Assembly (NCBI RefSeq): GCF_029227915.1
Contig: NC_079880.1
Location: forward strand, 24,676,501-24,740,500
DNA: 64,000 nt
Origin: Hydractinia symbiolongicarpus
Taxonomy: Eukaryota > Cnidaria > Hydrozoa > Anthoathecata > Hydractiniidae
Direction: 5' to 3'
Program-made: the position numbers and the translations under genes
Notes under the pieces: model-generated
The model's input: the letters and a program-made list of their open reading frames with translations, nothing else
Database searches by the model: none
What the model was told of the DNA's origin: nothing
Shown: positions 12,273 through 50,596 of the stretch, piece by piece
Layout of the letters: the number at the start of each line of letters is the position of its first letter
How positions within the stretch are numbered: position 1 is the first letter of the stretch

Positions 12273-15200
12273 CCAGGTATCATAATGGTGAGCAGTGAAT
12301 TATGGGTATTCTAAGATGGTATTTGGGTGCTTGTTGTAACTCGATGTATTCCATTCTTTATGCTTCCAACAACAGAAAATGAACTTTAGGACTCTTAAAA
12401 ACTTCTATAATCCTAAAAAAACATTTCCAACCAGCTGGAATCTGGTGTCATAAACATACAGAAATATTCTTCTATATATTAAACCCACCCAGGTGGTGGT
12501 AACGTTTTGTCGTAAAAGTACCTGTTTGCCATAACAGTGTCATATATTTTGTAGTAACGTGTTTGTTATTATTTTTGATAATGGCGAAACTGTTTTACGC
12601 GGCCTCGTAACGGCGTATATTATCTCTGTTACGAAACCAGTACATAAATTAGTTTGAATTAGTTGAGTTTTGTTCTTCGTTGCGATGTCTTGTTACTGTT
12701 TTCGCTATTCGCATTTTTTTCAAACAACGCTTCTTTAAACAACCTTTGCTTAAACGATAGGGGCGGACAATTTCAGTTTTTTTTTCTTGATGCGAATGAT
12801 AGTGAGATGATTCTGAGAGACAAAAACATTGATATGATTTACTTGGGACATAGCGTGTCTAGTAGTGGAAGATTATGTAGGCTTCTGCGCATTTAGTAAT
12901 ACGTAATAATTTAAAATTCCACAAAAGGATTCACAAAATTATTCCACAATAAACTTTGAGTACGACTGGACCACTACCCGTTGCAAAAATTAGCCCACCA
13001 ATCAATTTCGAGTACTTATCAAATAAAATCTCTCCAGATTCTGCTTAGCAGAGCTCGCTGGACAAAATTTAAGTCGGTCAAAAATGTAATTTTTACCCGA
13101 CAATGTTTTGTCCAGTAACATATTAAAATTTCTTAAATTTCCAGTTTTGCGTTCTTTTCGTGGATTTTAACTTTCCAAAAGACTTACGTACTTTTATATT
13201 TGTAAAAAATATTTTGTAAATATAATAATGAACTAATAATATCCGATTTCCTACCCGAAATCTTGTATGATGAAAATATTTAACACGGGTTATTTATATT
13301 TTTATAAACTGTTTTCAAATACTGTAATTTATACTAAATACAAGATTGAAGATGAAGATAAATACGTGCTCTTATTTGTGTGTAGTTTACACAGAATATT
13401 AGCCTGGTTAACTAAGCTTTCTTTGAGGACATCAAATGAAGTTTTTATGAAACGAAAGCTTAGTCGTAGTCAGATCAAATCCCTAAAATTCCAATCTACC
13501 TTATAGCAAACCCTGTTTTGAATCATTTAAGCAGCACTAAGTCGGCGTGGTCACGTCTTACCCTCTTAAATGATATAAGAACTATGTTTGTTCAGGTCAG
13601 TGAGGCCATTAGCGCTTAAAACAAAAGATTTTTGATATTGACCACGTAAATAAAACTAACCAATCAAAAAGCGTGGTCAGTATACTGACCGCAGAAAAAT
13701 CGTTTGAGACTTCGATTTCAATTCCGATTTCCTGGTGGTAAGAAAAATTATGCTGGGTCTCCTGGCTAACAGAACATTGAATTGAGAAGTGTTTTAGTTA
13801 CTTGATTTTAGTGACTTTAAAATTAATCAAAGCAACTAAGGCTCCAGTCTTTCTAAAGTAATTAATGTAATTACCCCAACTTAGTTACCAGGACCTATTG
13901 AATATTTTTATTTATAAAATAGTACACGACCTTTGCAATTACTCGCACTTTGGGTGAATCTGCTTATGTAAATGTTCCGAGTGTGAAATACAGTTTTATG
14001 TTGGTTATTTATCTGATTAGATTGAAATAGGGGTTTTGTTTTATTCTGCAAGGTCTCTGTTGTACAATAAATAGGAGAACGTTCCAGAACACCTGAATGA
14101 GTTAGAACAGGTAATACCATCCTAATAACAAGCTGGAACAACCGGAGAAAGTAAAAATAGAAGACTGTGTTGACTCTGTAAATGAAACCGGATTCACAAC
14201 AAGAAGTTTCCACTAAATAACGGTATTCCCTTTGTGCAACAACAATATTAATGGCTCGTATTCTACCGTAATTCTTCGAATAATAAACGTACTCTCCCAT
14301 TGCACACACTCTTCCTATTTCAATGATTTTTTAATTGCAACATCTTTGGTAACACTGGTGTTTGGGTGGACATGTGTTGATAAAACTCCGTTGATAATGA
14401 AACAGCGCATTGCTAGTTATTGTGCTACGGTGCTCGCGTGTATCAGTCCACTAAAAGGATATATTTGGTCACATTATTACGGATGATATTCTTGGTCAGA
14501 TGACATTCTACATTGTTATCTGTGTTTGTTATTTGTCAGATCACAGGACACATCACAGGGCACAGCGGTTATCATGCTAACGTTTATTGTTCGCGCAATG
14601 ACGACAAAATAGAGAATCTGACTTTATCAGCATGAGACGAGGGTATGACCTGCAGCTGCAAGTTATCGAATATATATCATCAACTAAATTTTTGCTAGAC
14701 TTTATTTTGGCTGAGACTTAACTGGTTTTTACTTGTTGTGTGGTTGTAATAAATACTTTGCATACAAGAACTTTGGCGTACCGCATGGCGTATGACGGAA
14801 CGACATGGCGGTAGCATCAAAGCAAAAGTAAACGGGGCCATATCAGATTCTTGCTTTAAAATTTCATGATTTTATGTTCGCAGATAATCCATTGGGTTGT
14901 CTCGTCAACAGTCATGTGGACGTAAATGTTGCGGGTTTTTTGCTCAAAATCACGAAATGCCATCTGACTTTGTGAATCGCAATAATTAATGCCGCAAAAT
15001 CTCTGTTTGTTAATTTAAAATTTCAAAAAAAAAAACAAAAAAAAAACAGAATAAATTTAAATCTAGAGATGAAAGAAATGTTGAAATTTTTCTTTTTCTT
15101 TTATCGTTCAAAATCATCTCCGACAATTAATTACACGCTTTTTATAACAATATGCTTTAAAGGAAAATCGGGTTGGGATTTTAAAATGAATACAATAGGT

Positions 15201-15325: not shown

Positions 15326-18193
15326 AAGGTGGTTCCCTGGGAAATAAAGCCCTTTTTCATTTTTTTTTCAATATTGAGTATTATATACTGTTGGAAAGGT
15401 TATTCTCTCAGCTATAAGGTGGTATAAATGGTTTTCCAAGGTCCTGCAATAATTTTGCAAATTTTACAGAAGTTTCTATACAGGTAGAACCTAAAATTTC
15501 GAAAATTTCCTTAGCAACGGTCCTTAGAAACTGATTTAGGCCAATATCTTTTTGTTAAAAAGTCGTAAGGGCGTGAAAATGCCGCCATTTTGACGCCAAA
15601 GGGCTGTTCTATCTTGCACAGCAAAGTTTTACTATAAGATATACACCGAAACCATCCTGAAGTGCTTTCAAAGTTAGAGCTCCTGGTGAAAGGTCATAAA
15701 TTCTTCCTCCATTTTTTAAACACAAATAGCTTGATTCTTTTAACCAATTAAAGTCATGGCTAACAAGAAAAGTTATCAGAAGAGAAGATCAAGGAAGAGA
15801 AAAGGTTTTAATGGTGCAAATGTTACAGCCAGCAATACAACATTAAACGGAACATCTTCAGAACCAATCCAAGAACTCACCGAACCTGAACCGTCAACAC
15901 AAACTGGAGCATCAGCTGCCAAATTAGATTGTAGTACTACCTCAGAAACAATTGAGAAAGAGTTTGTTGCTAACTGTTACATTATAATAGAGAGTGACTT
16001 GTTAATGTCTTTGATTTTTATGATAGGAAGATGCCCAGACTGTGCAGCTTCTGTAAGCGTGGAACATCTATTGCAAGCCAAAATGGGAATGGCTCATTTC
16101 CTTTTAATCTCATGTGCAGAATGCCCATGGAATTTGAAGTTTTGTTCTTCTAAAGAGTGTGATAAACCAGATCCAGTTAATGGCAGAAAAGGTTATGACA
16201 TTAATAGAAGGATTTCGTGAGAATGGTATTGGTTTCAGCGGCATCGAAAAATTTTGCAGATGCATGATTATGCCACAACCAATGACAAAATCAACATTTG
16301 AAAACATTAATTCATTGGTCCACAATGCTTATGTACAGACTTCACATGAGTCCATGGCTACAGCAGCAAAAGAAGTGCATGAGAAAACAAAAAGAAATGA
16401 CCCAAGTAGTGTTGATAAAGAGGATATCGCTAATATAGCTGTCAGCGGTGATGGCGCCTGGCAAAAGCGCGGATTTTCATCCCTTAATGGGGTAATGACA
16501 TTGATCGCAGATGGAAAGTGTATTGACACTGAGGTTATGTCGAAAAAGTGTAAAGAGTGTGATGTTTGGGAAAAGACAAATGACACCCATTCTGAGAAGC
16601 ATAAAGAGTGGAAAGAAAATCATGCTGCGTTTTGCTCTATCAACCATAGAGGCAGTTCTGGTGCCATGGAGATTACCGGCTTGAAACGTATTTACCATCG
16701 CTCTGTGAAAACTCACAAACTCCGATACACTTTTTACATTGGAGACGGAGACACAAAATCTTTTGTGGAACTTTGTAGTACAAATCCCTACCCAGGACAC
16801 AGCTTGAACAAAGGTGAATGTATCGGGCATGTACAGAAACGTGTCGGAACCAGATTGCGAAAAATTAAAACTGACCACAAGGGTGTAAAGCTTTCAGATG
16901 GAAAAGGCATTGGCAGAGGAAAGGGAAGACTCACAGACAAGATCATGAATACACTTCAAAACCATTATGGAATGGCTATTAGACAGAACACTGATAATCT
17001 TTATGCTATGCGTAAATCTGTTGCTGCTGTCCTTTTTCATTCGACAAATGAACCTGATGAAGAAAAGCGTCACATGTACTGTCCCCGAACTGAGAACTCT
17101 TGGTGTAAATATCAAAGGGATAAGATAACTGGTGAATCTACTTACAAAGGGCATTTAAACATTGATAAAGTTGTCTCAGACCTCATTGCACCTGTATTTT
17201 CAAGCAAAGACCTTGGAAGTGAGGATCTACTTAAGAAATGCCTTCATGGTCAAACACAAAACGTAAATGAGTCTCTCAACAATGTCATCTGGTCAAGATG
17301 CCCTAAAAGAGTTTATGTTGGAAATGCTGTTTTCAAAACAGCAGTAGCATCTGCAGTAATAGCATATAACAATGGAGAAACAGGACTGTTACCAGTATAT
17401 TCCAAACTTGGTTTAGAACCTGGTTATTATACCGAAACTGGTTTTCGTAAAGCTAACACAAAACGTGTGAAAGAGTCAAACCGCAAGTCTACTGACAGAG
17501 TTAAAAATGACAGAAAAAGGCAGAGAGCTGCCAGAAAAGGTTATGAAGATAAGAATTTGCTTGAGGAAGGGGAAACATATGGATATGGTGCTTTTGTTGG
17601 ACTTTAATTATTAGTTTATGAACAGATTAGTTTTTTTTTATACAAACTGTTTTTTTTCTTTTACCGATATTTCAAAACAAGATTTTTGCAGATTTTTGAA
17701 CTCCTAACAAAGATAACTTTTCATTGGAACAAGCTTTTGAGCTGAAATTTTGAACATCAGTTCTTCATTCTATTTAGGAGGGACTGTGTGAATTAGTTTT
17801 TCAATTTTACTATTTTTTCTTCTCCTAGAATCTAGTATGTTGTCATTGATATTCTCTTTTCCGGAAAAGTCAAGTTTGGTGGCCAACCCGATGCGATTTA
17901 GATAAAAAATTAAAAAAGTAATTCACTCAGTCCCTTCAGCTACTCAATATTAACACATGTGCAAAGTTTTATCTTGATTGGAAAAGTCTACCTAGAGATA
18001 TCCTTGTTAGGAGATACCATATGTTTTTAGCCTATAATTTGTTAATTATGCGCATAATTAGTGACGTCATCAAAAAAATTTAAAAAAAGAAATTTTTTTC
18101 TTCCTATTTTATTATGATACAACTTTGTGCCAAAGCATTTTGAAAAAAAACCATTTTTTGGAAAAAAATCCTTGTTTCCCAGGGAACCACCTT
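15326..18193 (+). mobile_element. Mutator-type DNA transposon (2.87 kb)
   Basis: A perfect 19-bp terminal inverted repeat, AAGGTGGTTCCCTGGGAAA, lies at 15326-15344 and inverted at 18175-18193. The interior encodes a Mutator-like transposase on the + strand. The expected 9-bp target duplication is not visible: the flanks are TTAAATTTT and AATATATTA. Either one end has changed or the true ends differ by a few bases. Beyond the 19 bp the two ends do not match well. Confidence 0.75.
15756..17607 (+). pseudogene. Mutator-like transposase, one frameshift
   Basis: Two overlapping frames make up one transposase. The first (15756 to about 16215) encodes a basic N-terminus (KRRSRKRKG), a Thr/Ser-rich linker and the zinc-binding start of the domain (CPDC..CAEC). 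It runs as far as GYDINRR, where the frame must change. The second continues ENGIGFSGIEKFC to the stop at 17605-17607. Catalytic landmarks of the Mutator-like domain are present: VSGDGAWQKRG, YIGDGDTKSF and a glutamate in NVNESLNNVIWSRCPK. The tail is basic. The break lies between about 16200 and 16222 and is a single-base shift; the rest of the frame is open, so the copy is either young and just inactivated or affected by a sequencing error. No intron is evident. Confidence 0.8.
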
Positions 18194-30695: not shown

Positions 30696-30957
30696 TAGAC
30701 CTAGCATAATTTTTCTTGCTACCAGGTAATCAGAGTAGTTATGGAAAGAAAAATTACGCTGGTTCGCAAACAAGTTTCTTGCAGTCAGAATACTGCCAGC
30801 GCTTTTTGATTGGTTAGTTCTATTAACTTTACTTACATGTTATGAGCCTTAAGGTGGTGAATTTTAAGGATTTGCTCTGACCTTTGTTTGCTTCTAAGCT
30901 TTCTCATGAAAGAAATTTATTTTATCGACTTTGTAAAAACATTAGTTAATTAGGCTA
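30696..30957 (+). mobile_element. MITE family 1, copy B (degraded)
   Basis: The order of blocks matches copy C at 38046: CTAGCATAATTTTTCTT, AATCAGAGTAGTTATGG, AAATTACGCTGG, CAGCGCTTTTTGATTGG, TTCTAAGCTTTCTC and a right end AGTTAATTAGGCTA. The left end has a small deletion and no 9-bp duplication is visible. It lies about 95 bases outside the left end of the 7.8-kb transposon. Confidence 0.65.
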
Positions 30958-31054
30958 CAGTACAGTCCGAATGTAAGCTTTCGCGTACGCGCTATACAAA
31001 CCTTTTCCTGCAAGTCGGAAGCCCTTTAATCTTTTGTTTATCGTAATTACTTTA

Positions 31055-31385
31055 GGGATCGTCCACAAATTTCGTCCCATTAACGAGACGCTATAAGACG
31101 AAAAAGTTAAAAAAAATTCGTCTCGTTTTGTTCTTAATTGAAATTGAGACGATTTAAAAATCGTCTCATAAATATCAGGAGACGATATTTTGTCAATTCG
31201 TCTCAGAATAAAAAAAGTGGAACAAAATATTTTAAGACGAATTGAGACGAATTGAGACGCTGCGGTAAAATCACGGAGACGAATTGAGACGAATTAAGAC
31301 GCTGCGGTAAAATCACGGAGACGAATTGAGACGAATTAAGACGCTGCGGTAAAATCACGGAGACGAATTGAGACGAACTAAGACG
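31055..31385. repeat. Left subterminal AGACG-rich repeats, with three 42-bp units
   Basis: After the terminal repeat, CGTCT/AGACG pentamers recur at short intervals, often inside GAGACGAATT. From about 31240 to 31370 a 42-bp unit built from GACGAATTAAGACGCTGCGG, TAAAATCACGGA and GACGAATTGA repeats about three times. Such dense subterminal motifs are typical transposase-binding sites. An open frame of 14-residue repeats on the minus strand is a by-product. Confidence 0.8.
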
Positions 31386-31445
31386 ACAGGGTTTCTTAAA
31401 CACGAAAATTTATTTAAAAAGCTAGTGTTTTTTAAAGTGGTTTTA

Positions 31446-34323
31446 ATGTATTCAGATATTTCAGATAGCGACAGCGACCTAGATTGGTTGTTTACGGACG
31501 ATTCTTTGTCCGATGATGAAAATGAAGATTACATCAACGAAATTTTACAATGCGGTAAATATTTATTTTTATCTCGTCGTAAAATTTTCAGCAACGGTCT
31601 TGAAAACAAAAAAATATATAATTGCCCAATTTATCTTGTGATTTTTCCGTAGTCATGAGAAAAAAACTACTATAATTATAAAACTATATATTTTCTTTAT
31701 TCGTAAATTTAAAGCTCGATGATGCAAAATCTTTAAAAGATTTGTTGTTTTTTTACCAACAACACACAAATATTCGAAAAACCTCACTATTTTAACTTTT
31801 CTCTTCGCACATGCCGGTGTGAGCATAAGAAGTAAATAATAGCAATTGAAGTTTGTTGCGATATTGCTTCTGAAAATTACGAAAAAAAACTATTTTTGCT
31901 TTATTATTTTTGTCAACTTGCACTGTTATATTAACTTAATGTATAATTATACTTATACAATTGATTATGGTGGGCTGCACATTGCAAAAAAAAAATTATT
32001 AACAATTTTATGTGACAGAAACGGCTTGTCAGAAGCAAATAATGTTCCGCAAAAAAACTGTGTGACGTGCGGTTGCATTACGTAAAATGATTTCAGACAA
32101 ATTAGATAGCCGCTTGTTTAGACACTCAGTTGAGCAGCCTAGTGCCCATGGATTAAGATTTGAATCATTTTTTGTAAACTATCACAAAAAAAAATCAAAT
32201 GGATAAACTTTTTTCCTTTAGCCTTCAATTTTGTCAATTCAATACGCGATTTGTTTTATAAAAACTGCGTTTTTAAGAGCGTTGAGGCTGAGATTTTGCC
32301 AATAATTAAGAACATATTAAAAACGTACTCAACCTGAATTCCTTCACAGATTATAAGAACAAAATAATGTATTCCAGTAATCTTTTTTTGTTTGCTTGAA
32401 TTTTTTATATTTTGTGCTGGACTTAAACATATTATCTCATGTATATAAATACATAAATTTCAGAAACTTTGGGAAAAATATATCAATAAGAACAAATAGA
32501 GGCTAAATTCTGAAGTCGTGTTCTTACTATTAAGAACAAAATAAGAATAAAACAGACTGAAAGTCTCAAAAGTAAGAATAGCCAGCCTCAAGTCAGATTT
32601 TACTAAATAAACATTAATAAACTTGTTTAGTAATCACTCGCGTCATTATTTGCATTTATAGAATAGTCTTTTTCTTATTTTAGCTTCAAAAAAACGAGGC
32701 AGACCAGCGCTACACGAGCAACATCCGGGCTTGGTTCCATGTATCGCATCCTACATAAGTCAGAACTCGGCCGAGGCCCATTTGAGGCGCAGAGACAGTA
32801 TTATGTACACAAATGGTGTAAGCTTAAAAGATATTGTCTCTCACATAAAAAGTACGCTCGGGTTAAATGTGAGTAAGAGCGCAGTGCATTACCTCATGAG
32901 ACCGAGGAGAAAAAAAACCACTTCGAGCAAGCGTCACAAATCGTTGGTTGATGCACGTGTTCCGCCCAAGCGCAACACGGGAGAAAAAAAGATCCATGAA
33001 GATTTTCATTTTTCTTGCTCCCAAGTTAACTTGGTTAATGAGTTAGCGCAGTTATGCAATGAAAACACAATCTCCTTGTCAGTTGACAACAAAAACAAGG
33101 TGGATGTTGGTATTCCCGCCACGAGTAGACGTGCGCAAATCCGACGTTATCACATCGAAAATGAGGCTCCCATTTACAATGACCACGACTTCCCCTATCC
33201 GAATAGTAAATTAACCCCAGCAGGTTATCAACAATTAAAGGTGAGAATAACAAGATCACGCTCATTATCTCCAACCCGCCAGCCTTTAAAAATAAATAGA
33301 AAAAGGTCTTTGTCTGAAGGAAGCAGTTTTCTGGTCCTAAAATCAGAAAGAACCAAGGACAAAGTTGGTAGAAGCAAAATCAAATGGTCCCGTAAAGGTC
33401 CGCTTTTCATACATTTATATCCTTCACGTTTAGTAGAAGCCACCAACGTCATGCATGTAAACTATCTTCTTCATCTTTTGCAACAAGAAAAAAAAATTAA
33501 AAATGTTTATAACGTCGTTGCAATTGCAGATGGAGGCCCCGACTGGTCAACAAAAGCAGTAGTTAACCTGATGTCGTTGGGTTATTTGTGGTTGAATTTA
33601 CGTTTAGATTGTTTGATCGTTCAATGTTACGCTCCGGGGCACTCCCGTTTTAATCCTATAGAAAGATGTTGGTCTTTCCTCACCCAGCAGCTGGTAGGAG
33701 TAACGCTTCCCGTTGAGGTTGATGGAAAAACACCTAATCCAAATGATTCTGAAAAATGGTTAAACGTCCTCGACAATGCTGCAACGGTTTGCTCAAAGTT
33801 TTGGAACAATAAAATATATGATGGTTTTCCAATAAAAGTAGAAACCTTCCTATCTACAAATCCGTTGCTGAAGGATATCAAGTGCGCGCACGATACTATC
33901 AAAAGATTTTGTGTTGCATCCAGAAAATCGATAAAATCATCTGTTGAATTTACAGAGCTACAACAGAAATACCGCTTTTTCGTGAAGCATTGTACGAGGA
34001 AAGCGTATCAAATTGAGTTTGTACGTTGTACTAGCACAGATTGTGACCATTGCTCATCCTTGCCACTTCGGAAGAACCAATTTTTAGACGTGATAAGAGA
34101 ATTTGGAGGCACGTGTCCAACACCACAACATAGTGATTTTTTTGCAGGTCACTATAAAACGCTCATCGAGATGGTACAGTCACAACTATGCCGAAATATT
34201 TCTAGTGCATCGCGCATCATGCCCTGCCTTACAACAAAATATGATGTCTGCAATCATGGCTGCAGATACGCTTTTTTTTCAGAAGCAGACAAAACCCGAC
34301 ACATGAGGTTAATGGACCATTAA
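31446..34323 (+). CDS. DDE transposase of the 7.8-kb element (two exons)
   Basis: Exons 31446-31554 and 32684-34323 join in phase 1 to give 582 residues. Exon 1 encodes 36 very acidic residues (MYSDISDSDSDLDWLFTDD..). Exon 2 begins with an AT-hook-like KKRGRPA, then a helix-turn-helix-like region (about 75-105). The core shows three candidate catalytic acidic residues: D171 in LSVDNKNKV, D319 in IADGGPDWS and E363 in FNPIERCWS. The last two are 43 residues apart. The DGGPD..APGHS..NP.ER pattern occurs in uncharacterised proteins of aquatic invertebrates (from memory). A Cys-rich stretch (near 490-515) and a terminal C2H2 finger, C-x3-C-x12-H-x5-H (559-582), follow. The intron contains the acceptor TATTTTAG. 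No internal stops. Confidence 0.75.
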
Positions 34324-34919
34324 TGGACATATTTGCTACTCGGGCTACTTAAGGCCAGTCCTTTTTTATTTCGGGGTCATTTTCAATATCTCAAGTTATG
34401 AAGAATCTGGCATAATTTATTGGGCACCATATTATATGTAAAGTAAAACGCAGAATTCAACTTTTCTGAAAAATTTCGATGGCGTCATAGACCAAAAACG
34501 CCCTTTATCCGCGTTTTTTTCCAAGCGGTTTTCCAAAAGACAAAGCGCAAAAAGATCTGGGGACGAGATTGCAGGATTATTTCGATAAAAAGGCGCGAAC
34601 AGTGTAAACCAAGGGTTTTAGCTTAGAGTGGAGACTAGCTATAGCTATATGATATACATTATTTAATATTTTTTTGGAAAAGTTCTTAATATTAATAAAG
34701 TTTTCTTTTGGATACGTTGCTGAAAGATTTGTTCTTAATTGTCGTCGATATATAGTAAAAACTAGCTAGCAAGCTAGCTATAGTTATAATTTTACGTGGT
34801 AGCGATATAAAGAAAAAGTAAGCAATATTCTTATATTTTTTGGACGCGAGACAGTCCGTCTTTCAGAAATACTTATTTATGTAGAGTGTATACAAATAGC
34901 TATCTACGCGTCCTTTTAG

Positions 34920-36744
34920 ATGGAGTACAAAGTTAAGTCCTCAGTCCAAGCCTTAGATCCCGAAACTAGGCATTGGCTTAATGCTGTAGTCGTAGAGAAT
35001 AGTGGGGAGAGGCTGAAAGTTACTTGGACAGGCTATGCAAAATCGTACGACTGTTGGCTTGACACAAACAATGTGAGGATGCCAATTCTAAAACGGTCGT
35101 TGGTATCAAGGAATGCCATCAATTCAAAAAACTTCCCGTTATACAAGCACCCTAAATATTTACAAATGGGTCATATTATTTTTGACAGGGTTCGAAAAAC
35201 AAAGTTCATTGTTGATGTTAACGATGAATTTAACGCAAAGGTAAATAGATTCTATTTTTGTCATATCATAGTCACATTAAGAAAAGTGTATGCAAAAATG
35301 GTTTTTGTTTTCTATGTTTTCTTTTTTTTATCACGTTCGAATTCGATTTCATACAGAAGACGTTGCATTGTATCGCGTGAATGATGCATAATTTTGACAA
35401 CACATGTTTTTTTTAAAGATATATTGCAACTCTAGAATTACTAAGAAACAATTATTTAATTTTTATTAGAACAATAAGGCTGATATTTGTTGAAAATAAG
35501 AATAAAATAAGAACAATTTCAGACTAAAAACACATATTTAATAAGCAAAAGGTTTATCCGGTAAAGAATATCTCCCAAAGCCCGTTTATTTAGACTTATC
35601 CAGTTTTTAAACTTTCCAAAACTTACTTTTTGCGAAGGTTACCACACGATGCGGCAACTCGGTCATGTACGAATACATGGAGGAAGCCAGTGAAGAGGAA
35701 GCCAGTGAAGAAGAGCCCACAGGTAATGTGGAAGATAGCGTAGCAGATTCTAGCAAAGAGATTACGGATGAGAGCCACCTACCAAGTGATCAACTAAAAT
35801 CCTTGGACTTGGTATTTGCAACCAAAGCAGTCAAAAGCCTTTCACCGTATAAAACCTTGCCAGGCCTTTCACTATCTAAAACCTTGCCTGACCATTTACC
35901 ATCCAAAACATCGCCTGATCATTCACCTTCTAAAACTTCGCCAGCCATTAATCTTTTGACTCCGGAAAATTTTCTTTTTAATATCACACCAGAATTACCG
36001 TCAATCGTGTCCACTTTAAAAAATGATCCTGCTACCGTCTCCACAAGCTCTTTCATTGCTGATTGTGTTCAAAACATTCCAAATTTTAACATTGCCGACC
36101 ATGAAATCGATTTTGAGTCCAACAATCTGGCACAGGTAATCCACGAAACAAAAAGAAACACTGATTTGATACTGGGCCTGTGTCAGAAGTTGGACACAAA
36201 AGTAGACGCTATAAGCGCAAGAACTGCTGTGCTTGAGAGTTACATCATGAAAAAAAGAAACTTATACGAGGCTAAAAATAAAATTTACCAGGAACCATTG
36301 CCCTTGCCAGCAACAATTACCCAGCCACCGAATAGTTATGTTGAGATGCTGGAAAATAATTTTGATCCGCTACTTTTCTTGCCCACAGAACATGATGACA
36401 TGGGCATGGAGACCACGCATGTTGAAGCACGGCCGCAAGTCGCAACTCCGCAAGCCACACCACCCGTTGGTAAAAAAAACCCGCTACGCAAAATTAACCC
36501 ATGCTCCGCGTTAATTAAAAAAGAGCTGGGTAAGCGTTTCACCCTTGCCGAATTAGCAGGTGGCAGGTTGAATGGTGGCAAAAATAAAAACGTGTTGTCA
36601 CCACGAAGAATGGGAATAATTTTGCAGAAGGCCAGGAAGGAGCATAAGGAGGAATTTGAAAATAATATAAAAAACAATTTAAATGAAATCATTAACTCAA
36701 AATGTCGAAAGGCAAGTCAGAAAATAAGGGACACCACGGATTGA
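34920..36744 (+). CDS. Tudor-like plus BEN-domain protein of the 7.8-kb element (two exons)
   Basis: Exons 34920-35240 and 35638-36744 join in phase 0 to 475 residues. Residues 1-55 (VQALDPETRHWLNAVVVE..LKVTWTGYAKSYDCW) fit a Tudor/chromo-barrel fold of the kind that reads modified histones. The middle is acidic (EEASEEEASEEE) with SPSKTSP-type repeats near 175-210. The last 85 or so residues (ALIKKELGKRFTLAELAGGRL.G..NVLSPRRMGIILQKARKEH) resemble a BEN domain, a DNA- and chromatin-binding module. An acceptor CCTTTTAG directly abuts the ATG, so a 5'-UTR exon is likely. It lies 600 bases downstream of the transposase gene on the same strand, within the terminal repeats, so it is probably an accessory protein. 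Both domain calls are by eye. Confidence 0.65.
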
Positions 36745-37111
36745 TAAAATAAATAGACGAAATTATTTAGGTCAATTCTCACGTTCCGAACTTTTTTTTT
36801 CTCGCATTCTATAAAAAACCTTAGGCACAGAAAGGTCAAAGTAAAAGTGTTTTTGCATACGTATTTAGCTACGTATTTATGGACTGGTTTCTTATAAAAA
36901 AAACGTGCATAACGTAAAATGTTGAGATGATTGATTTCCTAAAACCGTGGAAATTTCAGATAAAATTTTTTAGCTCCTTATTCTGACTTGTCTTCGTATT
37001 TTAAGTTTTTATTTTAATATTGTTTGAAAAAGAATTTGTTCTAATTTATTCCGCGCTTTTTTATTCTCGCACTTTTTTTATTCCCTTACAAAATAAAATG
37101 TCTTACAAAAT

Positions 37112-37168
37112 AAATTTTAGATATTTCTAACTATGATTTATCATAGTTAATAGAAATATCTAAAATTT
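37112..37168. repeat. Near-perfect 57-bp palindrome inside the transposon
   Basis: Arms AAATTTTAGATATTTCTA (37112-37129) and its exact complement (37151-37168) flank a second complementary pair ACTATGAT/ATCATAGT. This predicts a long hairpin between the BEN gene and the right end. It could act in transcription termination or be a small insertion. Confidence 0.8.
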
Positions 37169-38045
37169 ATTAACTCCCTATTTTAACTTTTCTTCGGGTA
37201 TAGGTTCAGCATGTTTATGTTTCTCATAACATACTTAAAAAAAGAATCAAACTGATAAAAAAAACGACAACTCACTCGCACGTGTGCTCTGACCCTCTGA
37301 AACCAATGAATGAATCACGATTCGAACACAGAGCAGAAGATAAAAATTGTTACATTTTTCTTCTTGAAAAATTCGAAAAGGACGGTTTCTCTTAGCTCCC
37401 CAACATAACATTTAAATGTATTAAGTTAAAAAGAGCTAATATACTGAAATGTACGAACCATTACAGGCAGAATACACCTAAATACACCTAAATACACCTG
37501 AGAACAAACATCTTGACATAAATTTTGCTTTTATCCCTGATCTGTGTACTGGTTTCGTTTGGTTAATGAATACCATGTTAAGGCTATTTTCTACCTCAAG
37601 AAAATTTTCGGCGATTTTTGATTGGCTAATTTTAATGTTTTTCGATGATGTGACGTTTGCGGAGGAACGCCAGCCATTTCGAATATATCTCCCAGTAAAG
37701 ACGAGCTATGTTTCGCATCTAACTATCTATATTTAATATCTATATATTCCTTCCTAACAACATATTTAAAGAATCCTAATCTTAAAGAATATTTATGGCT
37801 AAATTCAGTTTCAGATATACTTACCAGTAAATATCGAAAATAACTCAAGATTCCATCTGTCACGACCAATAATAATATTTTTTGTGAGATTTGTTTCGCT
37901 TTTCCACAACATAGTTCCAGCTTCGAACGACGAAGTTTGCTGTGATAAAATGTTGCCAAGTTTGATAAATATACAGACCGTAACATTCAACAATCGAACG
38001 AGTACAAACAATGTAGCTTAAGTTAATCAGTAGCTGTGCCACTGC

Positions 38046-38472
38046 TAGCCAGGAGACCCAGCGTAATTTTTCTTACCACCGGGAAATCGGAGTAGTTAAG
38101 GTGGGAAAATTACGCTGGGTCTCAAACGATTTTTCTGCGGCCAAAATCTGGCCGCGCTTTTTGATTGGCTAATTCTATTGTTCTCTGCTCACGTGATTAT
38201 TATCGGGGAAAGCCCTTTTCATCCCGAATATTCCAGTGAGTGGTTTCACTCACCCTAACAAACATTAGTATTCTACAAAGTTTTTACCAAAGTAAGATTT
38301 GACCTAGCTTGGTAAACAACTCACAGATAAATTAAAATGTCCTCGTAAGCAATTAGTCACATTGTTCGATTTAAACTCGGGGTTTCCGCTGAGTCATTCG
38401 TTCGCGTCTAAGCTTTAGTTTGAGAGAAACTCATTTTATCAACTGAAGAAGAAAGCTTAGTTAACTAGGCTA
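38046..38472 (+). mobile_element. MITE family 1, copy C, nested in the 7.8-kb transposon
   Basis: The element runs from TAGCCAGGAGACCCAGCGTA to TTAGTTAACTAGGCTA. It is flanked by a perfect 9-bp duplication, TGCCACTGC (38037-38045 and 38473-38481). Blocks match copies A and B. The duplication places this insertion after the 7.8-kb transposon was already present. Confidence 0.85.
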
Positions 38473-38481
38473 TGCCACTGC

Positions 38482-38550
38482 CGTTCCGCTAGAACAATGG
38501 AATAATTTCTTTTTCACGGAACAAAATCACGCTGGGTCTCCTGGCCAAGA
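38482..38550 (-). mobile_element. Partial MITE family 1 end
   Basis: Immediately beyond copy C, ACAAAATCACGCTGGGTCTC then CTGGCC matches, in inverted orientation, the start of the family. This is a solo end about 25-70 bases long; its own boundaries and duplication are not visible. Confidence 0.5.
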
Positions 38551-38579
38551 TTTTTAAAGTTTCGTGTTAAACTCACGGA

Positions 38580-38889
38580 AGTGTTCGAAAATATTTTTCA
38601 ACTTTTGAGACGAATTTATTATAGCAGAGACGAATTGAGACGATTTGAGACGAATTAAGAAAATTCATAGACGAAATGAGACGATTCGGAGACGAATTTG
38701 TTTTTAAAATATGATATTCGGAGACGAATTTGTGACTATCAGGAGACGATATGAGACGAATTAAGACGGTTAAGACACTACAATGTTATCACAAAAAATC
38801 GTCTCGTATGAAAGAGTTAAGACGAACAAAACAAATTTACAAGACGATTTAAAATGAGCCGAATTTAGACGAAATTTGTGGACGATCCC
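38580..38889. repeat. Right subterminal AGACG-rich repeats
   Basis: Many GAGACGAATT/AGACGATT motifs lie in this segment. They include an ATCAGGAGACGATAT block also present in the left end in the same orientation (near 31177). The last 22 bases are the inverted terminal repeat. Confidence 0.8.
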
Positions 38890-39577
38890 TTAATGGTCTT
38901 TCCAAGAGCTATGTTGTGAGTGATTTAACAAAAGCTTCGCCATAAAACAATCTAATTATTTTCTCATAACTGCGAGTTTAATTAATAAAACATATTGAAA
39001 ATAAAATCCCCTTAGGTACTAGCACAAATAATGAAATTTATTGATTTGTTACCTCCACGAAATATTAAAATAAATTGTGCAAAATATATTGTTTTTAAAA
39101 ATGTTTTAGTGCCTGTTTATGTTGTTTTTTTATATCTTCTAAACTTGGTCTGTTTTAAAAAATACAGTTCTTAGCATTTTATTCTACGCTATTTTTTCTC
39201 AACAAAACATTACGCAAAAGAAATCGCGCACAAAACTATTGTTGTTAAAAAAGTTTCATGCGCTTATTTTTTGTTTAAAAGGCTTTTCAAAAAAATATCA
39301 TTTTGAACATTTTATTGCGATCTTTTTTTCTTAACGAAACTTTAGGAATAACTTTAGCACCGTAACTTTAAAATATAAGTCTGGCATGAAAGTTATTTTC
39401 CATTTACTCCGACGCTTTTCCACCTTGTTCTACCACATTTTAAAAGCGTATACAGTCCTGTTTTGCCAGTCTACTCAATAAAGAGGCTAAGCGTGCAACA
39501 CTTTGCATGCCAAACGTGTTTCTATATTGTCAAAGTGTGCGATTCTCAGTTCTTTCATAACTGTATCTACAACAGAG

Positions 39578-45100: not shown

Positions 45101-48100
45101 AGGTGTTTTTTCCTTCAGTCAAAATGGTAAAAAAGAAAAAAATGCCAACAACTGTTTTATTTATTTCTCAAAGTCTTTTTTTTAATCTCTTTTAGCTTGT
45201 CAACCTGCCACCAGTTTTGGAGACAATCAAATCCTTGGAACAAAATAACATCAACTTCTCATTATTTGACAACGTCCGCATCGAGCCCACAGATGTTAGG
45301 TATGGCATAAATGTGAAATCTTCAGGAATTAGTAGGTTTTTTGTTTTGTTTTTGGAATCGAAATGTGTGTGATTGCTATACACAAAAAAATATATATTTC
45401 AGTATCATTTTGTAGTGTATGTTTCTTGTTATGTGTATGTATTTTTTACATAGTTTCCAAGAAGGTATCGATTTTGCAAAGAATGGAAATTTTGATGCTT
45501 TTTTGGCTGTTGGAGGTGGATCAGTGATAGATTCTGCTAAAGCTGCAAATTTACTTCTTTGTCATCCAAATCACGAACTTCTGGATTTTGTGAATGCACC
45601 CATTGGAAAAGGCTTACCTACAGAAAACGAACTGAAACCACTTTTAGCTGGTATTTTATACCTTAATACTTGCGTTAACCGCCAATTAGTTTTTTTAACT
45701 TTAAAAGGCACTTTTATTCAAAGCGCTTAAATTTTGCCAAATATTTCAAAATTCTATTTTAAAACAGATTATATATTTTAATTTTATAACTGCGTCTGAC
45801 GTTAAATGCTTATGATTAATATCTTCTACTATATTATATTTTAGTTCCAACAACAGCCGGAACAGGTTAGCACATTTTCTTTAGTTTTTTTTCTAAAACA
45901 TTGTCACTGTTTGTTGTATAATTGTTATATATTTGTTATTTTTCTTCTCAGGAAGTGAAACCACAGGTGTGGCAGTCTTTGATTATACTCCGTTAAAAGC
46001 AAAAACTGGTATGTCGGTTTGTTCTTGTTATTTTGTTTGTTTGTTTGTTTGTTGTTTTTGTCATTCTTGCTTAAAGAAGTCTAAAAACGTAATTCGATCC
46101 TTCTTCAGCATGACTGGATAAGAATTTTCTTTATACTTGAAATAAATTGTCACAGTAAACAAGCATGTTGGTGACAATTTAACTTTTAACTTGTTTTCCT
46201 CAATAAAATTAATGCAACATCTTTCACTAAAAATTACCAAAGTACACATAAAAAGCTATCAATTTGATATTCAACTTGTTGCATACGAGCACAAAAATCT
46301 GTCGTGCCTAAAGATTCAACTTTTTTAAGCCTCTTTTTTAACTATAGTACAAAGTTTATCATTTAAATTTGCAAAAGCCGCCATCTTTTAGTGCTTACAG
46401 CTCTATACTAATTTTTATTTCAGGAATTGGCAACCGCGCACTTCGGCCATTGCTTGGGATAGTCGATCCACTTCATACTTTACACATGCCCGCAAGAGTT
46501 ACAGCTAACAGTGGATTTGATGTGTTTTGGTAATTAACTGTTCTGTCTTCTCTCCTTTTTCTTTTTAACTTTAAAATAATGATAGAAATATGTTGTGCTT
46601 TTAGTCATGCGCTGGAATCCTACACGGCAATTCCATACACTGAACGCTCTCCACGTCCGAGTAATCCGAAATTGCGCCCAGCTTACCAAGGTAGTAATCC
46701 GATCAGTGATGTTTGGTCAAAGCACGCATTAAAAGTTTGCGTGGATTATTTAAAAAGGTGATTGGTTTTGCAATTCAGTTTCTCGCGTGGGTACTTTCTG
46801 CTTTTGAAAAAGCCTTACTTTAGTGAATTTTTTTCAGTCATAAATGTTTGCTAATTCGGCTCAGTTTGAAAAAAAATAAATTAATTCGTTGATTTGCTAA
46901 AAGAATATTGATCAATAAGTTACAAAGTTTGTCCTCTCAAAATATTTTGTTTCCATGCAAAGTGTTTACTGCAATATTTTCTGACACTAAATTAAGTTAA
47001 AATCCTTCGCATTTTTGGTCATTTTCGCGAATGTTTATGGCTATAGAAATTGTAAGTCAGCAAAATAAGGGATATTCTTCAAGACGAGAAAGTTTTTTCA
47101 ACTTAAAAAATAAAACAGCGGGAAATTCTCAAAGTTAATAATTTATTTCTTCTTTAACCTTCAAATACATTGTGTTTTCATTCTTCTTTGGTACTACGGA
47201 CATTTGTTGGATGTCCTGATCCTTGAAACGGTAATGGATGCAGACTTTAGATTACAAACAATAAGGAAAGAAGAAATAAAAAAAGAATTAATTACAATTC
47301 GCGATTTTTTCACCTCGTGAACTTTTTTGCCTGCGAAAGTTCCTGCCACTAAATTAGCTCTCCGAAATTACTAAAGGACTTCATTTTAATATTATTTTAA
47401 AACCAAAAATTATAGCCCCAGATATAATTATATTCGCTAACCGTGTTTGTTATTCGTTAACCGTGTTTGTTATTCGCTAACATGTTTGTTATTCGCTAAG
47501 CATGTTTGTTATTCGTTAACCGTGTTTGTTATTCGCTAACCGTGTTTGTTATTCGCTAACCGTGTTTGTTATTCGCTAAGCATGTTTGTTATTCGCTAAG
47601 CATGTTTGTTATTCGCTAAGCATGTTTGTTATTCGCTAACCGTGTTTGTTATTCGCTAACCGTGTTTGTTATTCGCTAACCGTGTTTGTTATTCGCTTAT
47701 TCTATCTTCTGTTTAAACCCAACAGAAGCATTAACGTGAGAATTTTTAATGGAACAAATGTATCTTTTTCCCTAGAGCTGTTTCAGATCCACATGATATG
47801 GAAGCAAGATCTGAGATGCATCTGGCGAGCGTGTTTGCTGGTATTGGCTTCGGAAACGCAGGTGTTCATCTATGGTATGTTCATATGTATATACGATCAG
47901 TGTATATACGATCAGTGTATATACGATCAGTGTATATACTGTCAGTGTATATACTGTTAGTGTATATACTGTTAGTGTATATACTGTTAGTGTATATACT
48001 GTTAGTGTATATACGGTTAGTGTATATACGGTTAGTGTATATACTGTCAGTGTATATACTGTTAGTGTATATACTGTTAGTGTATATACTGTCAGTGTAT

Positions 48101-50596
48101 ATACTGTCAGTGTATATACTGTCAGTGTATATACGATCAGTGTATATGCTGTCAGTGTTGTCAGTGTATATACGATCAGTGTATATACTGTCAGTGTATA
48201 TACTGTTAGTGTATATACTGTCAGTGTATACACTGTTAGTGTATATACTGTCAGTGTATATACGATCAGTGGATATACTGTCAGTGGATATACTGTCAGT
48301 GTATATACTGCCATTGTTTATTTCAAATTCCGTATAGTATGTGAGACTAAATTTTTTTCGAAGATGGTAAAAAACAATCAAACTTCACGAAATCAAACTC
48401 GCGAATAATTACTCTTGTTCAGATGGTGATAATTCAGCTATTTTAATTTGTATTGCACTTCTGTTTTGCCAATCGTCTTGACGTGATCTTTTTTGTGTAT
48501 TAGTCATGGAATGTCGTACGCTCTGTCTGGCATGGTGAAAAAATATCAAGCTGAAGATTATAATGTCGAACACGCGCTTGTTGTGAGTAACTCTGTTTTA
48601 GTTGTTCTAGTGATAATATACAAGCAGAGTTTCTGCAGGTCTAGGGACGCTGTTATGATAAATCGAGACATTTTGAATCCATGAAAATCGACATCACTTT
48701 TGTGATAAAGGTAAATTCCACTAGATGTCTGTTGCGCTCCATGGGCGCTTGTTTTGGTGGCGCGTAATCTTGATGGGCGCTTGTTTTGGTGGCGCCTAAT
48801 CTTGATGGGCGCTTGTTTTGGTGGCGCTTAATCTCCATGGGCGCTTGTTTTGTTCAAAATTTGTAAACTTTGCTAATAAAAATAGCTTTTGTACTTACTT
48901 TGACATTGACTCTCTTGTTTCAATATATTTTGTCCACGTTATAGGAGACATAATTTAAAGGGACCTTAAGTAGGGTTAAAAATCCCAAGGCTTACTCTTT
49001 TCAATTTTTTCAACTATAGTCGTACTTTGATAGTATAAGCATTTTATCGAACAAAAACACGAGTTTGTTTCATGCGAAGATTGCTAATTTGTAGTCTGCA
49101 ATAACGTTTCTTCAGTCTTGTCTTCCATTCGTATTTCAGGCTGATCGTTTCTTAAATTTCTTCATTGCAAAATCACATAGAATTAAAATTTGTTTGTTGA
49201 ATATCAGTACATTTACTAGTTATCCAAGATTCTTTACTTTCACGGAACCTGCTCATCTTTCAGCATGTTCGTGTAAGGGGTCTTCGAATTTTTTTTTTGT
49301 GGCCCCGTTAGCGGGATATCGCCGCTAAGATTCAGACCCCCTCCCCCCTCTTTTATCGAATTTCCGTCCGTGAAATACACACATTCGGGTAAATCTTGAA
49401 AGGCTCAGGGGCGTGTTTTGTAGATAAAAGTTATCGGAATTTATGAAAAGAGGAATTATGCTCACGAACGACGAAGAATTTTTAGGCCACAAACAATTTT
49501 TTAAAATTTCTCAATACTTAGCGGATTTTTTTTTCAAACATCAGGGGGTCTGAAGGGGGTCCCCCCTTATAATTTTTGAAGGCCCTAAGACATTAAAAAG
49601 GTTTTCATCACGTGTTCTTTTATTTCAGCCGCACGGTTTGTCCGTCATTATCACAGCACCTGCAGTGTTTAACTATACCGCGCCAGCTTGTCCAGAAAGA
49701 CATCTTGATGCTGCTGAAATATTAGGTATGGTTTTCGAAATTTGGATTGTTACATGATTTTGTAGTACCTAAAGAGTTTATATTTTAATTCTATGCGAAA
49801 TAGATTTTAACACTCACATCGAAGAATTACTGAACTTTCATTTGGCCTCGCGGAAAATTTTTAAAGGCCTTATTCGTGAAATCTATTTTCTCAAACATAT
49901 TGAACGCTGTTCTTCGCGAAAGTTTTTTTTATTTCGGAATTATTTTTTTTATATCGCTTTCGTATTAAGTTTTAGTGTAGCAATTGTAATCAACTTTTTG
50001 AATCGATTTAAAACCATGAGGTTTATTGTAACTTTACGCGCTATTTCAAGATCTCCTTTAACGAATAATAGTCACATGCATATACTTATATCGCCTTAAC
50101 GCAAAAAAAAAATTATCTTCGAAATTTTCTCCTTTAAAGGTATTTAGTAGATAAAAAGAAAGTGGAAATATTTAAGAAGTTGTATTTCTGAGATTTTATC
50201 CAGTTTGCGCACGGAATTTACACCTGATCGTTTTGCGCGCCTTCAACTGTAGCGCGATTTCTTCGCGTGAAAATTTAAGACGCACAAAAAGTTTTCTTCA
50301 TTGACCTGCGTCTGTGGAGTGATTCTTATTTTATATTTTGTTATATTCTAGGTGTTGACATCTCCAATGCAAAGAAAGAAGACGCTGGCCCGATATTATC
50401 GGATGCAATTCGCAAATTCATGTATGACTTAAATGTGGACGACGGTATTTCAAGTTTTGGTTACACGAGTTTGGATATTCCCGATTTAGTCAACGGGACG
50501 TTACCACAACATCGGGTTACAAAACTAGCCCCGGCAGGCGAACCAGCACCTGAAGAGTTCTCCATGATATACGAGCAGTCGTTAAAGATTTATTAA
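42112..50596 (+). CDS. ADHFE1: Hydroxyacid-oxoacid transhydrogenase, mitochondrial (ADHFE1)
   Basis: Fifteen coding exons give 475 residues, all joins in frame: 42112-42176, 42346-42401, 42661-42704, 44115-44168, 44588-44638, 45196-45299, 45454-45650, 45845-45865, 45952-46008, 46424-46529, 46605-46757, 47776-47874, 48504-48582, 49629-49725, 50352-50596. The enzyme is an iron-containing alcohol dehydrogenase that oxidises 4-hydroxybutyrate to succinic semialdehyde while reducing 2-oxoglutarate to D-2-hydroxyglutarate. The basic N-terminus ([16 protein letters not shown]) suits mitochondrial import and runs into [10 protein letters not shown] as in vertebrate ADHFE1. Core motifs include [13 protein letters not shown], the nucleotide-binding [28 protein letters not shown], the metal-site histidines in HALESY and HGMSY, and GFGNAGVHL. 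The end is SLKIY. One exon is only 21 nt. Introns 11 and 12 carry large minisatellites. Confidence 0.95.
43725..43905 (-). mobile_element. 5'-truncated LINE, 3' end with (ATG)n tail, copy 2
   Basis: In an ADHFE1 intron, the sequence from the ATC-repeat (43727-43746) through TTCTCGGCTTAACATCTG to CTCGGTCTACC is nearly the same as copy 1. It ends about 75 bases shorter, in the middle of the GRPRKTW-encoding segment. Coding matches on the minus strand end ..ASMENRC. Shared 3' end and different 5' truncation points are the hallmark of LINE insertion. Confidence 0.8.
47435..47696. repeat. 20-bp minisatellite in ADHFE1 intron 11
   Basis: About 13 head-to-tail copies of TATTCGCTAACCGTGTTTGT. Two main variants occur: CTAACCGTG, and CTAAGCATG in blocks of consecutive units. 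Confidence 0.9.
47880..48312. repeat. 15-bp minisatellite in ADHFE1 intron 12
   Basis: About 28 copies of TGTATATACTGTCAG with variants CGATCAG, CGGTTAG and CTGTTAG, beginning within a few bases of the exon-12 donor at 47874. Because the unit is 15 bp and lacks stops in several frames, long open frames appear on both strands. They are not genes. Confidence 0.95.
48722..48850. repeat. Tandem repeat of about 33 bp in an ADHFE1 intron
   Basis: Four units containing GGGCGCTTGTTTTGGTGGCG, separated by TAATCTTGAT or similar. The G+C content is high relative to the surrounding intron. Confidence 0.8.

Follow-up and report, generated by a model that had tools for sequence, protein, structure and literature searches.

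The element and its ends

The sequence analysed, a 64,000-nucleotide stretch of Hydractinia symbiolongicarpus contig NC_079880.1 (hereafter the window), contains between positions 31055 and 38889 a complete transposon of 7.8 kb with two spliced genes, the transposase gene (gene A) and a second gene (gene B). Its neighbours in the window are an OATP-type transporter, CEP19 and receptor-type frames. The features of the element are listed in Table 1.

Table 1. Features of the transposon and of its target site (window coordinates)
Feature	Position	Strand	Basis or remark
TTA target duplication, left copy	31052-31054		adjoins left end; single insertion
Left terminal inverted repeat, 22 bp	31055-31076	+	GGGATCGTCCACAAATTTCGTC
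Left subterminal GAGACGA-type motifs	31095-31386		motif counts; includes 42-bp tandem array
42-bp tandem repeat in left array	31235-31385		3.6 copies
Gene A exon 1, acidic N-terminus	31446-31554	+	GT donor, in-frame join
Gene A exon 2, PF07592 region and conserved columns	32684-34323	+	profile match, alignment
Gene B exon 1, weak MBT-like domain	34920-35240	+	PF02820 below cut-off; L(3)mbt-like PDB chains
Gene B exon 2, acidic repetitive middle, basic C-terminus	35638-36744	+	open frame, GT/AG join, charge
Nested host-type repeat, 23-nt inverted ends	about 38048-38545		kin elsewhere in window
Right subterminal GAGACGA-type motifs	38607-38876		motif counts
Right terminal inverted repeat, 22 bp	38868-38889	-	GGGATCGTCCACAAATTTCGTC
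TTA target duplication, right copy	38890-38892		adjoins right end; single insertion

The two inverted ends are identical at 22 of 22 positions. At up to three mismatches GGGATCGTCCACAAATTTCGTC has only two matches in the window, both of them the ends of the transposon, and an equal number of matches was obtained in 0 of 100 shuffles (mean 0.00). TTA is present on both sides of this one insertion, a 3-bp agreement which, as sole evidence, is weak. The motif GAGACGA occurs nine times on the plus strand and three times on the minus strand in the left 400 bp, and nine times and once, respectively, in the right 400 bp. It does not occur in the intervening 7,033 bp, and the window outside the transposon holds two copies on each strand. 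We regard these subterminal motifs as putative binding sites. The description of a complete 7.8-kb element given in the earlier note, with its identical 22-bp ends, TTA, subterminal motifs and two intact spliced genes, is confirmed.

Approximately 0.5 kb of the transposon is accounted for by a nested repeat which is foreign to the element's own design. This ~0.4-0.5-kb repeat is represented by three copies in the window: the one nested within the transposon (38048-38545), which carries the 23-nt inverted ends, one at 13400-13772 on the minus strand, and one at 30697-30957 on the plus strand, just to the left of the transposon.

Gene A: structure and likely catalytic residues

Gene A specifies a product of 582 amino acids and has a single GT/AG intron. 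The longest open frame is 553 codons; when the element was randomised 300 times with a first-order Markov model, none exceeded 205. The exon-1 model is supported by those relatives of the protein which have a similar acidic D..WLF start before the GRP motif; with a loose pattern this start was found in at least 9 of 91 protein records, a lower bound, many of the records being partial. By eye, the acidic start nearest to that of gene A is found in P0008. The second exon comprises a likely N-terminal DNA-binding part, a DDE core and zinc-binding-type Cys/His motifs at the C-terminus.

In the spliced numbering the motifs SVDNK, DGGPD and NPIER start at residues 169, 319 and 360. Alignment of the relatives revealed invariant columns at D134, D282, G284, P285, D286 and N323 (exon-2 numbering), and E326 is kept at 90% or more. 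The catalytic triad is likely D171, D319 and E363 (spliced numbering), residues which are called catalytic because the protein belongs to the DDE families. This triad is provisional, since D166, D168, D225, D286 and D308 (exon-2 numbering) are also invariant. Of 89 proteins, among them that of the window, 76 have 43 residues between D319 and E363; the other 13 were unreadable by the pattern, and the records P0002 (the window's own transposase product) and P0079 (gene B) had been removed beforehand.

Transposase family

The only Pfam family matched by the transposase at E<=1 is PF07592 (DDE_Tnp_ISAZ013), with 33.1 bits versus a curated cut-off of 26.9; the alignment covers 63 of the 308 profile positions. 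The best NCBIfam match is ISAzo13 (NF033519; E 7.5e-10), whose score of 38.4 bits does not reach the cut-off of 200 for the bacterial family. IS630 follows (E 0.019; 14.4 bits versus a cut-off of 100), and IS256 is third (E 0.032). In an alignment of 25 rows, where exon 2 from the window was joined by 24 sequences out of the 77 protein-search matches, PF07592 was found at E<=1 in 19 rows, with six rows lacking it. The founding description of Zator by Bao and others in 2009 reportedly names the same Pfam family. The earlier note had held that the transposon fits no named superfamily by eye, and had itself named as counter-evidence a known superfamily which the transposase matches clearly by profile and which has the same gene pair. 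A profile match of this kind is present in PF07592, with ISAzo13 as the best NCBIfam family, and the proposal is not supported; described Zator elements may or may not carry the same gene pair.

Relatives of the transposase

A protein search with the transposase gave 77 matches, one of which is the window's own product. LOC130644463 of Hydractinia symbiolongicarpus is 61% identical in an alignment that spans 58% of the query, and the other named relatives belong to bdelloid rotifers (Adineta, Rotaria). Of the named relatives, the one from Hydractinia is nearest. In a tree of 51 rows the window protein falls within an 11-row clade which includes Hydractinia (support 100/99). The rows were records of at least 450 residues, with P0002, P0079 and P0091 left out and the Hydractinia row added despite its lesser length; the tree is made up of relatives found here, with no named Zator or bacterial sequence among them.

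A profile search of the protein database with the transposase gave 89 proteins; most of these lack a name, and among the names shown none is bacterial. The longest contigs given for P0002 and P0079 differ in length (31.0 and 28.8 Mb), and P0002 stands for eight member sequences, which may represent several near-identical copies or several assemblies. Three of the relatives (P0080, P0081, P0082) are 962-1095 residues long and possess a long N-terminal extension, opening with an SRQ..LFG- or YRNPTTRY-like stretch, in which no Pfam match above cut-off was found.

Among viral contigs, the transposase alignment brought up 36 stretches, none of which was confirmed. Among genome contigs, one of 21 stretches was confirmed, a 54-base Nostoc match without a frame of at least 40 residues spanning all of it. 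The PDB sequences included no relative at E<=1 when queried with the single protein, and the transposase profile picked out one unrelated chain (E 0.77).

Gene B

Gene B is a real gene by its reading frames. Its product is 475 amino acids long and is encoded, like that of gene A, with one GT/AG intron. The first ca. 51 residues resemble the MBT domain (PF02820), with scores of 18.4 and 19.4 bits versus a cut-off of 22. At E<=1 there were matches to 15 PDB chains, and every one of them carries the name L(3)mbt-like or KIAA1798, with E-values from 6.8e-4 to 0.3. The lowest value is a sum over several weak target repeats; within the top chain no single stretch scores above 10.5 bits. The C-terminal 90 residues are basic, with a net charge of +14. 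No BEN domain was found in the C-terminal 93 residues by Pfam at E<=10, a search in which the HMMER filters drop weak matches and a remote BEN fold might be missed, and among PDB sequences the C-terminus matched no BEN protein, but two unrelated chains (E 0.59 and 0.97). An AHH match to the C-terminus (E 0.014; 15.9 bits, below the cut-off of 22.3) was taken as chance. Gene B had previously been described as a Tudor-like/BEN protein. The Tudor-like half of this description survives in the form of a weak, sub-threshold MBT match, while BEN has neither profile nor PDB support.

The full protein has no homologue among 7,404 candidates except its own product P0079, and none of four stretches in viral contigs was confirmed. 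This single record contrasts with the 77 matches for the transposase (one its own), and it is quite possible that gene B is a captured host gene, or is private to this copy, rather than a fixed partner of the transposase. Against this stand the long, intact, GT/AG-spliced frames, which lie on the strand of gene A and inside the ends; moreover, a word-based search misses fast-evolving proteins, so that absence from it is weak evidence. A captured or private gene B would be compatible with the assignment to Zator given below. For its product the likeliest role is that of a helper which binds chromatin or DNA and is supplied by the transposon itself. Gene B is the sole part of the transposon that might be new. 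In the listed titles and abstract openings of the openly licensed literature there is no mention of a second gene, of BEN or of MBT in such transposons.

The introns of both genes contain similar AATAAGAACAAA-type motifs (32485-32552 and 35497-35529).

Superfamily assignment

Members of the PIF/Harbinger superfamily insert at TTA, have GGG..CCC ends and carry two genes, and the window element resembles them in all three respects. It differs in its proteins: the transposase matches PF07592 only, and no Harbinger-type or IS5-like family, at E<=1, and neither exon of gene B has a Myb-type match at that threshold. Nor is a Harbinger- or Myb-type family among the 20 listed for the 25 aligned relatives. 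A PIF/Harbinger element is thus ruled out by the family profiles, and we consider this origin extremely improbable. In this the earlier note was right, having described a complete two-gene DNA transposon outside PIF/Harbinger.

Tc1/mariner (IS630) elements share with the window transposase an NPIE-type third catalytic motif, and the IS630 profile appears among its matches. The target of the window element is TTA, not TA, and the IS630 score is far from its cut-off; Tc1/mariner was rejected on the duplication and on the profile. The right end is not directly abutted by TA.

Zator is listed in Repbase as a superfamily of eukaryotic DNA transposons (PMC4455052). Other reports pair Zator with ISAzo13-like elements (PMC5718144) and state that eukaryotic Zator resembles prokaryotic ISAzo13, both producing 3-bp duplications (PMC10045372). 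Zator and bacterial TP36 are described as kin of Tc1/mariner yet apart from it (PMC7386202, PMC8533490), with Zator as a separate superfamily inside the IS630-Tc1-mariner group (PMC7386202).

The window element shares with Zator an ISAzo13/TP36-type DDE transposase and, at its one insertion, a 3-bp duplication (TTA); its two spliced genes agree with a eukaryotic host. Based upon the ISAzo13-type profile, the published pairing of Zator with ISAzo13 and the 3-bp TTA duplication, the element is very probably an autonomous-looking Zator DNA transposon, a eukaryotic counterpart of bacterial ISAzo13/TP36, set beside Zator by profile and published descriptions. The 43-residue D-E spacing, the match to PF07592 in 19 of the 25 aligned rows and the 22-bp ends speak for this assignment as well. 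Points against it are the short PF07592 alignment, the low ISAzo13 score, the six aligned rows lacking PF07592, the further invariant aspartates and the single insertion. The second gene, with its weak MBT-like domain, is a possible point of difference from described Zator elements. With bacterial ISAzo13/TP36 the element shares the 3-bp duplication (PMC10045372) and, across the core's second half, the transposase profile. It differs from these in its introns, acidic N-terminus, Cys/His-rich tail and second gene, and its transposase scores far under the bacterial family cut-off.

One might instead propose that the element represents a new superfamily, akin to bacterial ISAzo13 yet independent of Zator, and with a gene pair of its own. 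The PF07592 match is short, the comparison with Zator is by description only, and the gene pair has no parallel in the protein search or in the listed portions of the openly licensed literature, all of which would suit such a proposal. On the other hand, the profile family and the duplication length are those of Zator in the published accounts, and the relatives in several animals belong to a single unbroken family that shares its catalytic spacing. We consider a separate superfamily very improbable.

Proposed mechanism

The ends, the flanking TTA, the intact spliced frames and the family of the transposase are observed, and upon these a course of transposition can be sketched, in which the steps beyond anatomy and family are modelled on DDE transposase families in general. 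We infer in this way the activity of the element, its binding sites, the chemistry at the DNA strands, which residues exactly are catalytic, and the action of gene B. Cut-and-paste would be the most likely mode. Binding to the inverted ends and to the subterminal GAGACGA motifs would be the task of the N-terminal part of the gene A protein and/or of its Cys/His-rich tail. The D171-D319-E363 core would then excise the transposon and insert it at TTA with a 3-bp stagger, giving rise to the TTA duplication. The product of gene B may assist through an affinity for chromatin or DNA.

More specifically, the element might belong to a two-component Zator lineage whose transposase acts together with a conserved MBT-like, DNA-binding partner; such a partner could, for example, recognise histone methylation and thereby direct integration or avoid silencing. 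We regard this as unlikely. If gene B were such a fixed partner, it would represent a chromatin-reader-like helper in a transposon of the cut-and-paste type.

Significance and other features of the window

The transposon is well preserved and, as a Zator element, belongs to a superfamily that is already known; its transposase group has been described before. Zator copies that are intact and have clear ends make good reference elements. A mollusc survey counts 44 Zator among 14,275 DDE/D elements (PMC10294476), and a study of C. elegans gives Zator as the most abundant class of DNA transposon (PMC12239620).

Two further features of the window were recorded. A second transposase-type gene is located at 15744-17607 on the plus strand; it is Mutator-like (PF20700; E 4.4e-55) and consists of two overlapping frames. 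Lastly, the region 47750-48408 contains open frames of short tandem repeats on both strands and is minisatellite-like.
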